A stretch of 37,502 bases of DNA from Mucilaginibacter sp. (GTDB lineage Bacteria > Bacteroidota > Bacteroidia > Sphingobacteriales > Sphingobacteriaceae): NCBI GenBank assembly GCA_028288085.1, contig JAQBOK010000353.1, positions 1 through 37,502 on the forward strand, read 5' to 3'. Position 1 is the stretch's first letter; every line of letters begins with the position of its first letter. Under the pieces are notes generated by a model, which was given only the letters and a program-made list of their open reading frames with translations, had not been told where the DNA came from and ran no database searches. The position numbers were made by a program, and so were the translations under genes. Below, in pieces: positions 31,820-35,576 of the stretch.

Positions 31820-32425
31820 TTAAAATTCACTTAATTCCAAGTAATCAATGCCGCAAGCTTCGGCACAAATTTCATCAGTTTCAGAATTTCCTATCATTAA
31901 AACATTTCTTCGTTGCAAATTATGATCTTTTATAAGCAGATCAATACAATCTGTTTCAGGTTTAGGGGTTATTTCATCGGCAAAATAACAGGTGAGGTAG
32001 GGTTCGAGTCCGTTCCATTCGGTTTGCTTAACTTTATTTAACTGCTGCTCGGGATTCCCATTAGTCACAATAAATATTTCTTTCCTGTCAATCACAATTT
32101 CCTGCAGCAAGCTAAGCATATTTTGATGGAGCAGCAGTTTCAAAGGCAGCTTTGCCGTTTTCTTTAGATGATCAAAGTTAAATCTATATTTTTCGTCAAT
32201 GTTAAACTTTTTCTTTAAACAATCAAAAACCGCATCCTTTCCTTCTGATAAATACGTATTTATCATCAAATCAGTTGCTTCTTTTGCATTTATAAATTCG
32301 GTGTATTCTAAAAAGCTTGTAAAAAGATAATAAACCTGGTATAAATAGTCCTTTTCGGGATAAAGAACCTCATCCAGTTCAAATATGAAAGCTGTTTTTC
32401 GATGATCTAAGTCTCTATATTTCAT
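31820..32425 (-). CDS. HAD-superfamily protein with substituted catalytic acids
   Basis: This 201-residue protein has a HAD-like layout: motif I at 16-20, a helical cap (about 25-105), motif II VTNG (Thr121), motif III lysine (Lys155, TPKPE) and motif IV MIGNSETDE (178-185). However, motif I reads ELDEV instead of DxDxT/V, so the nucleophilic Asp is Glu16, and motif IV has Asn180 where Asp normally lies (GDS). Asp18, Thr121, Lys155 and Asp184 remain. The DNA reading was checked at both positions. The protein may be inactive as a phosphatase and could bind a ligand instead. Its ATG overlaps the 3' end of the upstream gene by 11 bases, so the two are translationally coupled. Confidence 0.8.
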   Translation of the reverse strand: MKYRDLDHRKTAFIFELDEVLYPEKDYLYQVYYLFTSFLEYTEFINAKEATDLMINTYLSEGKDAVFDCLKKKFNIDEKYRFNFDHLKKTAKLPLKLLLHQNMLSLLQEIVIDRKEIFIVTNGNPEQQLNKVKQTEWNGLEPYLTCYFADEITPKPETDCIDLLIKDHNLQRRNVLMIGNSETDEICAEACGIDYLELSEF

Positions 32426-34781: not shown

Positions 34782-34812
34782 ATCTAACCATAGATTACAA
34801 TATTTAAGATTG

Positions 34813-34840
34813 GAGCCCGTAATGGGCTCTTTTTATTTTT
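34813..34840 (+). terminator. sucC terminator
   Basis: A perfect 6-bp GC-rich stem (GAGCCC / GGGCTC) with a 5-base loop is followed by TTTTTATTTTTAT, about 30 bases past the sucC stop. Confidence 0.9.
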
Positions 34841-34881: not shown

Positions 34882-34903
34882 TACAATTTGTCGACAAATT
34901 GTA
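34882..34903. promoter_or_regulatory. 22-bp perfect palindrome upstream of yceI (candidate operator 1)
   Basis: Each half reads TACAATTTGTC, meeting at a central TCGA, so the site is a perfect 22-bp palindrome. Its centre is about 35 bp upstream of the centre of a second palindrome and about 63 bp before the predicted transcript start. Such symmetry suits a dimeric regulator; the TACAATT...AATTGTA ends resemble operators of the MarR/OhrR type, an inference only. Confidence 0.6.
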
Positions 34904-34914
34904 AACTTAAAAAT

Positions 34915-34940
34915 TAGATATATGTTTAAACATATATCTA
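34915..34940. promoter_or_regulatory. 26-bp perfect palindrome over the yceI promoter (candidate operator 2)
   Basis: Each half reads TAGATATATGTTT and the centre is TTTAAA, giving a perfect 26-bp palindrome. It ends two bases before the -7 box and takes the place of the -33 element and spacer, so a protein bound here would compete with RNA polymerase, or replace a missing -33 contact. The sequence is unlike palindrome 1. Confidence 0.6.
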
Positions 34941-34942
34941 TC

Positions 34943-34950
34943 TATATTTG
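34943..34950 (+). promoter_or_regulatory. yceI -7 box (TATATTTG)
   Basis: TATATTTG is a perfect TAnnTTTG match 23 bases before the yceI ATG, with a predicted leader of about 18 bases. No -33 TTTG is found at the normal distance; that stretch is the 26-bp palindrome. Confidence 0.65.
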
Positions 34951-34973: not shown

Positions 34974-35510
34974 ATGGCAACAATAACAAAGTGGTCTATT
35001 GACCAAATGCACTCAGAAGTACAATTTAAGGTAAAACACTTGGTAATCTCAACGGTAAGCGGTTTTTTTAAAAGCTTTGAAGGATCAGTTGAAACAGAAA
35101 ATGATGATTTCTCAGACGCGAAGATTGAATTTTCAATTGATATTGACAGTCTTGATACTACCCAAACCCAACGCGATGAGCACTTGAAATCAGCCGAGTT
35201 TTTTGACGCTGCAACTTATCCGCACATCAAGTTCAAATCAACTTCATTTACCAAAACCGGTGATGATGAATATGCATTAAAAGGCGATCTTACAATCAAG
35301 GACGTAACCAAACCGGTTACACTTAGTGTTGAATACGGCGGTTCTGCAGGCGATTTTTATGGCAATATTAAAGCAGGTTTTGAAATTACCGGGAAAATAA
35401 ACCGTAAAGAGTTTGGTTTAACCTGGGACGGTGTAACCGAAGCAGGTTCGATAGTAGTTGGTGAAGATATTAAATTAACCATCAACGCACAGCTGACCAA
35501 GCAAGCGTAA
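34974..35510 (+). CDS. YceI-family lipocalin-like protein
   Basis: This 178-residue protein of the YceI family folds as a beta-barrel that binds long isoprenoid or other lipid chains. Characteristic parts are WSIDQMHSEVQFKVKHLVIST (7-27), the LDTTQTQRDEHLKSAEFFDA stretch, YPHIKFKST and GKINRKEFGLTWDG. No signal peptide is visible, so this is a cytosolic member rather than the periplasmic form. It is a single-gene unit with two palindromes across its promoter and a terminator just after it, which points to dedicated regulation. In other bacteria some yceI genes respond to pH or oxidative stress; whether this one does is unknown. Confidence 0.93.
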   Translation: MATITKWSIDQMHSEVQFKVKHLVISTVSGFFKSFEGSVETENDDFSDAKIEFSIDIDSLDTTQTQRDEHLKSAEFFDAATYPHIKFKSTSFTKTGDDEYALKGDLTIKDVTKPVTLSVEYGGSAGDFYGNIKAGFEITGKINRKEFGLTWDGVTEAGSIVVGEDIKLTINAQLTKQA

Positions 35511-35546: not shown

Positions 35547-35576
35547 AAGCCATTTGCTTTGCAGATGGCTTTTTTG
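35547..35576 (+). terminator. yceI terminator
   Basis: AAGCCATTTG pairs with CAGATGGCTT (one G-T pair) around a short loop and is followed by TTTTTG, about 37 bases past the stop codon. Confidence 0.85.

Follow-up and report, generated by a model that had tools for sequence, protein, structure and literature searches.

Conservation of an inverted repeat at the yceI promoter of Mucilaginibacter points to an operator for a MarR-type regulator

Two perfect palindromes lie before the promoter of yceI in a 37,502-nucleotide stretch of Mucilaginibacter DNA (the window), which raises the question of whether both are operators and of what might bind them. The first-pass annotation of this DNA described palindromes of 22 and 26 bp with centres about 35 bp apart before a -7 box, the nearer one occupying the spacer and the expected -33 position of the promoter, and all of these elements are present. 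They are located as follows.

34812 to 34830, + strand: terminator-like stem after sucC.
34882 to 34903, no strand: 22-bp perfect palindrome, with the full dyad (11 of 11 pairs) in the window species only and at most 8 of 11 pairs in 35 other aligned sites.
34888 to 34904, + strand: direct repeat TTGTC-N6-TTGTAA with an 11-bp period, a proposed separate regulatory site.
34915 to 34940, no strand: 26-bp perfect palindrome, the proposed MarR operator, with the core TAnATGTTTAAACATnTA at 34919-34936 and ATGTTTAAACAT at 34922-34933.
34943 to 34950, + strand: TATATTTG, assigned from sequence as a Bacteroidota-type -7 box, for which we take TAnnTTTG to be the consensus.
34974 to 35510, + strand: yceI, encoding a 178-aa YceI-domain protein (PF04264, E 5e-50).
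35547 to 35571, + strand: terminator-like stem after yceI.

Both palindromes are free of loops and 100% paired. The arms of the 22-bp palindrome span 34882-34892 and 34893-34903 (TACAATTTGTC and GACAAATTGTA) and those of the 26-bp palindrome 34915-34927 and 34928-34940 (TAGATATATGTTT and AAACATATATCTA); the centre-to-centre distance is 35 bp, and the TATATTTG box starts 15 bases past the centre of the 26-bp palindrome. Because terminator-like stems follow both sucC and yceI, yceI is probably a transcription unit of its own, as the annotation had it. Elsewhere in the window a third perfect palindrome, TGATAAATACGTATTTATCA (20 bp, 32246-32265), lies within a 201-aa open reading frame (31820-32425).

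The two palindromes before yceI are both real and improbable by chance, yet they are different in nature. Our results suggest, with a probability of roughly three in four, that the 26-bp palindrome is the operator of a MarR-type regulator encoded elsewhere in the genome (L073 MarR), which would control a YceI/pirin detoxification regulon, and that the 22-bp palindrome is a species-specific overlay on a direct repeat. This reading is built on sequence comparisons that establish the conservation of the operator, its gene set, the linkage to MarR, the presence of the operator in promoters of MarR-yceI loci from other families, and the absence of a dyad from the upstream element.

Conservation was assessed in the DNA upstream of yceI orthologues of at least 70% identity in Mucilaginibacter (60 genomes searched), a sample of 58 regions including that of the window; L058 (69.7% identity) fell under the cut, though the site is present there, and L061-L065 are paralogues. 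At least 10 of the 12 letters of the core ATGTTTAAACAT are kept in 57 of the 58 regions: the core is exact in 47, has one change in 8 and has two in 2, and both of the latter variants, GTGTTTAAACAC and ATGTTGCAACAT, remain symmetric. The sole miss, L066, is a second yceI copy in G029. When the 57 regions are anchored on the core, the conserved block is TAnATGTTTAAACATnTA, most positions of the core having about 2 bits and the values dropping steeply outside it, and the conserved dyad is 18 bp. According to the excerpted text of PMC6798810, MarR-type operators span 16 to 20 bp as palindromes or pseudopalindromes; the 26-bp element provides such a site at a promoter. In 43 of 57 orthologues the TAnnTTTG box starts 13 to 16 bases past the centre of the operator; in 5 the stretch scanned has none. 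The operator was absent before all five genus yceI-type genes of 52 to 60% identity that were fetched, and present before several more distant, secreted yceI-type genes of the genus. Among 24 newly fetched loci, a set distinct from further matches listed without loci, ATGTNNNNACAT was found in 5 of 7 from the genus, with one letter changed in 2, and upstream of yceI in 11 of 17 from other genera of the family, with one or two changes in 5 and no site in 1. The first-pass annotation had made the fate of the palindromes in close relatives a test of its proposal, and on this point they part: the 26-bp palindrome is kept, whereas the 22-bp palindrome is changed.

Pairs 10-15 form the outer arms of the operator (window 34913-34942, orthologues L003-L060); their letters vary, but complementarity is kept. 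There are 199 complementary cells compared with 164 in shuffles, a value reached in 0 of 1,000; controls slid by 1 to 3 bases gave no comparable excess (the largest, at +3, was 156 versus 147, reached in 122 of 1,000), and beyond pair 15 the excess is gone. That the symmetry is conserved while the letters are not may reflect DNA structure or hairpin-templated correction, by which imperfect inverted repeats are corrected during replication. Such correction may have acted beside binding and contributed to the perfection of both palindromes, and the perfection of the 22-bp palindrome in one species only would fit with this. However, the pairing excess at pairs 13-15 persists when pair 7 is mismatched (62 versus 49.4, as against 22 versus 20.3 with pair 7 matched), the opposite of what contiguous pairing predicts, and the invariant core of the operator is left unexplained. 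We therefore regard a contribution from hairpin-templated correction as possible but doubtful.

The genes that lie behind the operator form a recurring set. Exact copies of ATGTTTAAACAT number 36 in ten other genomes of the genus, compared with 12 for a backwards control, and 28 of them were counted, by reading of the neighbouring genes, as close before a small set: cytoplasmic yceI (6 sites), secreted YceI-type genes (5, two named by eye), pirin or its divergent NAD-binding neighbour (pirin/epimerase; 4), VOC/glyoxalase genes (6), nitroreductases (4 sites at 3 genes), and one site each before a luciferase-like, an SDR and a DoxX-like gene (the last recognized by eye, with no Pfam hit). The remaining 8 are inside genes or beside unrelated genes. 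Pfam confirmed the family membership of representative genes behind the sites. Two exact ATGTTTAAACAT sites stand 40 bp apart in one nitroreductase promoter (L115:1508 and 1548). Within the window's own genome the exact 12-mer is scarcely enriched (4 versus 3 for the control) and the relaxed operator WNATGTNNNNACATNW is not enriched genome-wide (27 versus 35); nor did the scan for further copies that had been proposed in the annotation find a second copy of either full palindrome within 3 mismatches. A weight matrix built from the yceI sites was used to rank the 46 own-genome sites within one mismatch, and its top three were the window yceI, a secreted yceI (C250) and pirin (C342). It is likely, judging from these neighbourhoods, that the 26-bp element marks a regulon of YceI proteins, pirin, VOC/glyoxalase, nitroreductase and luciferase-like oxidoreductases. 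A peroxide- or lipid-stress switch had been envisaged for this promoter; the gene content points rather to detoxification of reactive organic compounds.

The candidate regulator in the window's own genome is the L073 MarR (C8:9748-10194; L073:1381-1827). This protein has 37 to 54% identity to MarRs adjoining yceI in four other families, and 59 of the 60 genomes of the genus have a close orthologue. A particular kind of MarR gene adjoins yceI in other families of Bacteroidota, as in the orders yceI-MarR-DoxX (DoxX by eye) and MarR-pirin-yceI. Named genomes were scanned for MarR loci, and the counts in the remainder of this paragraph and in the next refer to the best 80 of 589 related stretches, in which 27 Sphingobacteriaceae-type loci were separated from 53 others by title and shared gene order. 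The Sphingobacteriaceae-type MarR has a common gene position away from yceI, whereas in 31 of the 53 other loci the MarR gene adjoins a YceI or pirin gene that is read in the same direction. In those 53 loci, ATGTNNNNACAT is present in 27 of 75 MarR, YceI and pirin promoter regions, whereas 300 shuffles averaged 0.39 and never exceeded 3, and it is the commonest inverted 4-mer repeat with gaps of 0 to 10. It occurs in 21 of 28 loci with MarR-YceI/pirin adjacency versus 4 of 20 without. Other promoters of the same loci have it in 14 of 208 regions; these hold 17 matches, 13 being the same DNA read from a divergent gene and 4 not. Many of the sites touch a ATATATTTG-like box. We consider these MarR-yceI/pirin promoters with ATGTNNNNACAT to be the strongest evidence that the 26-bp palindrome would be the operator of the L073 MarR.

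Of the 27 regions with ATGTNNNNACAT, 11 have two such sites, and 9 of 11 intervals between them measure 15 bp; the two-site MarR-yceI promoters are L211, L213, L215, L216, L218, L223, L234, L258-L260 and L262. The matches to the MarR clade include records titled Ignavibacteria, Kapaibacterium and Calditrichia. The operator centre varies by group (TTAA here; TATA, TGCA and others elsewhere) and, because operator letters differ between groups, the link of MarR to operator across them rests on ATGT/ACAT and on position. Upstream of the Sphingobacteriaceae-type MarR gene itself ATGTNNNNACAT was found in 0 of 27 regions, whereas sites do precede MarR genes in other families. An operator before the regulator's own gene is common, but not universal, in the MarR family.

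It is also conceivable that the 26-bp palindrome is the operator of some other regulator (HxlR, TetR or another MarR) and that the MarR-yceI neighbourhood is incidental. Besides several other MarR genes the own genome encodes six HxlR regulators, the MarR linked to yceI elsewhere lies apart from its supposed targets in the genus, and no match to this MarR was found in G003, a 99%-complete genome, although the operator is present before its yceI (L036). However, ATGTNNNNACAT is concentrated in the MarR-yceI/pirin promoters of other families (best 80 of 589), and 0 of the 46 own-genome one-mismatch sites are directly before any of the six HxlR or ten MarR-model genes, the latter a kind of gene beside which the annotation had suggested looking. 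We judge that another regulator is improbable. HxlR regulators, none of which has a one-mismatch site in front, were rejected as the binder; the site nearest to an HxlR gene (C268) is inside a gene about 400 bp downstream. Also rejected was a different MarR, whose neighbour in G048 is a tolC-like gene (by eye): an exact site (L106:1510) is present between the two genes, 3' of the MarR, and this protein is of another MarR type, with 23 to 31% identity to the yceI-linked MarRs. The annotation's association of this promoter with a MarR-type regulator is probably correct, but it was made for the 22-bp palindrome, whereas MarR fits the 26-bp one.

The L073 MarR matches PF12802/PF01047, and not HxlR, in a Pfam scan. 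In an alignment of 88 MarRs (87 locus proteins and our own; 8 of 30 genus loci, L263-L292, passed the motif filter), no cysteine is invariant, and 74 of the 88 have a cysteine within aligned residues 92-98, probably the wing. These sequences do not favour cysteine-based sensing of the kind used by OhrR.

What, then, is the 22-bp palindrome? Upstream of the operator, WTGT-N7-WTGT is present in 36 of 57 genus orthologues (shuffle mean, 1.3-1.4), and no other direct-repeat gap in the 57 gave a count above 6. In 32 orthologues the repeat ends in WTGTAA, and 33 of the 36 repeats start 37 to 43 bases before the operator centre, the other three being elsewhere (-52, -70). In the frame of the 22-bp palindrome, however, the 36 aligned sites have 4.44 complementary pairs per site versus 4.42 expected from independent columns. 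Because 36 of 57 orthologues keep the repeat while the pairing is that of independent columns, it is the one-helical-turn direct repeat that selection appears to keep, and the perfect dyad is, on this alignment, a peculiarity of the window species. WTGT-N7-WTGTAA was found in 0 of 17 loci from other genera of the family, and WTGTC-N6-WTGTAA was not enriched in the own genome (9 versus 18 backwards), its nine matches having no common theme by eye. By eye, a possible extra WTGT unit precedes the direct repeat by about 10 bp in five orthologues (L005, L006, L012, L019 and L023). Some 55 bases upstream of the operator centre, L007, from another species, has an 18-bp perfect palindrome, ACATTGTTGCAACAATGT.

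The first-pass annotation had likened the TACAATT...AATTGTA ends of the 22-bp palindrome to MarR/OhrR operators and had taken the pair of palindromes to suggest two regulators or one with a bipartite site. There are indeed two different conserved elements, but the upstream one is a direct repeat with no conserved dyad, and those ends form a perfect palindrome in the window species alone among the 36 sites. A true second operator, OhrR-like or for a second MarR dimer bound 35 bp from the first, would be consistent with the perfect 11-bp arms, with the 8 and 7 of 11 pairs kept by the nearest relatives L060 and L004, and with some excess of inverted ACAA-N8..14-TTGT (15 of 57; shuffle mean, 2.5). 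But inverted arrangements have smaller excesses than the direct repeat, the largest being ACAW-N10-WTGT (9 of 57; shuffle mean, 1.2); these are scattered over positions (-73, -55, -44) and spacings, and the spacing of the window palindrome occurs in 2 of 57. Moreover, TTGTCGACAA is present in 1 and ACAAT-N10-ATTGT in 2 of 57 yceI upstream regions, and the direct repeat accounts for the conserved letters. On the dyad counts we rejected the 22-bp palindrome as an OhrR/MarR operator, and a second operator of either kind seems very improbable. As for chance, the 192-bp intergenic stretch is 77% AT, but arms of at least 11 arose in 12 and of at least 13 in 2 of 20,000 first-order resamplings of it, two separate long palindromes arose together in none, and the two before yceI are the only perfect loop-free palindromes with arms of at least 11 in the window (mean expectation, 0.02 per window in 100 first-order resamplings), so that the rarity claimed by the annotation stands and chance, refuted for the 26-bp element by its conserved core, can be practically dismissed.

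The best reading is therefore of a MarR-repressed regulon for detoxification of electrophiles or quinone-type compounds, together with a separate upstream direct-repeat site. A dimer of the L073 MarR would bind the 26-bp palindrome before yceI and, because the operator overlies both the spacer and the place expected for the -33 element, would block RNA polymerase at the yceI promoter; the position of the operator could also suit an activator instead of a repressor. The same MarR may control YceI proteins and pirin and, depending on the species, VOC/glyoxalase, nitroreductase and luciferase-like oxidoreductases. As the gene content resembles the MhqR and QsrR regulons, the MarR might be released, by analogy with MhqR, by a quinone or another small, reactive organic molecule. 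The layout of the direct repeat WTGTC-N6-WTGTAA would suit an activator that binds in tandem, for example a response regulator of the OmpR/PhoB type.

Both YceI proteins and pirins are very common, and little is understood about either. The tie of one MarR and one operator to both of them across Bacteroidota would give a handle on their role via the inducer, and no link of YceI, pirin and MarR was found in the literature among the matches listed. A broader proposal, which we offer tentatively as one that probably overreaches, is that this MarR clade, widespread in Bacteroidota and neighbouring phyla, acts through the operator ATGTNNNNACAT as master switch of a regulon in which YceI proteins and pirin serve to detoxify electrophiles, and that in Mucilaginibacter the operator has gained an outer dyad, kept in its symmetry but not in its sequence, by which DNA shape or cruciform extrusion might tune the switch. 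If so, the poorly understood YceI lipocalins would join quinone and electrophile defence. The locus also illustrates how a perfect palindrome in a single genome can mislead; the comparison of orthologues alone separated the likely operator from a one-species dyad.

Several known systems bear on this reading. OhrR operators have the form TACAATT-AATTGTA, and the 22-bp palindrome is like them in its outer letters, but its dyad is not conserved in orthologues. Redox sensors of the OhrR type have an invariant N-terminal reactive cysteine, and the 88 aligned MarRs share no invariant cysteine. OmpR/PhoB-type response-regulator boxes are 11-bp direct repeats, a period matched by WTGTC-N6-WTGTAA upstream of the yceI promoter. 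QsrR, YodB and CatR are alike in gene content, with quinone reductases, a nitroreductase, an FMN-linked monooxygenase and dioxygenases, in the excerpted text of PMC6798810, which also describes the use of Cys6/Cys7 by YodB and CatR, whereas the candidate MarR clade is without an invariant cysteine. These three regulators are MarR/DUF24 proteins, unlike the L073 MarR with its PF12802/PF01047 match. DUF24 is here equated with the HxlR type. A further parallel is MhqR of Staphylococcus aureus and Bacillus subtilis, a MarR-type repressor with a 9-9 bp palindromic operator, which the excerpts of PMC6798810 and PMC12893000 describe as sensing quinones without a thiol switch and, in B. subtilis together with YodB and CatR, as controlling dioxygenases, nitroreductases and quinone reductases. 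However, the MhqR operator given in these excerpts, TATCTCGAA-ATCGAAATA (TATCTCGAA-aTCGAaATA), differs in its letters from that of the window and lies over the transcription start, and its target genes also differ; a term search found no pirin in PMC6798810 and no YceI in PMC12893000. Because its operator has other letters and its targets include YceI and pirin, a difference from MhqR so far as those excerpts describe it, we do not file the candidate L073 MarR as MhqR.
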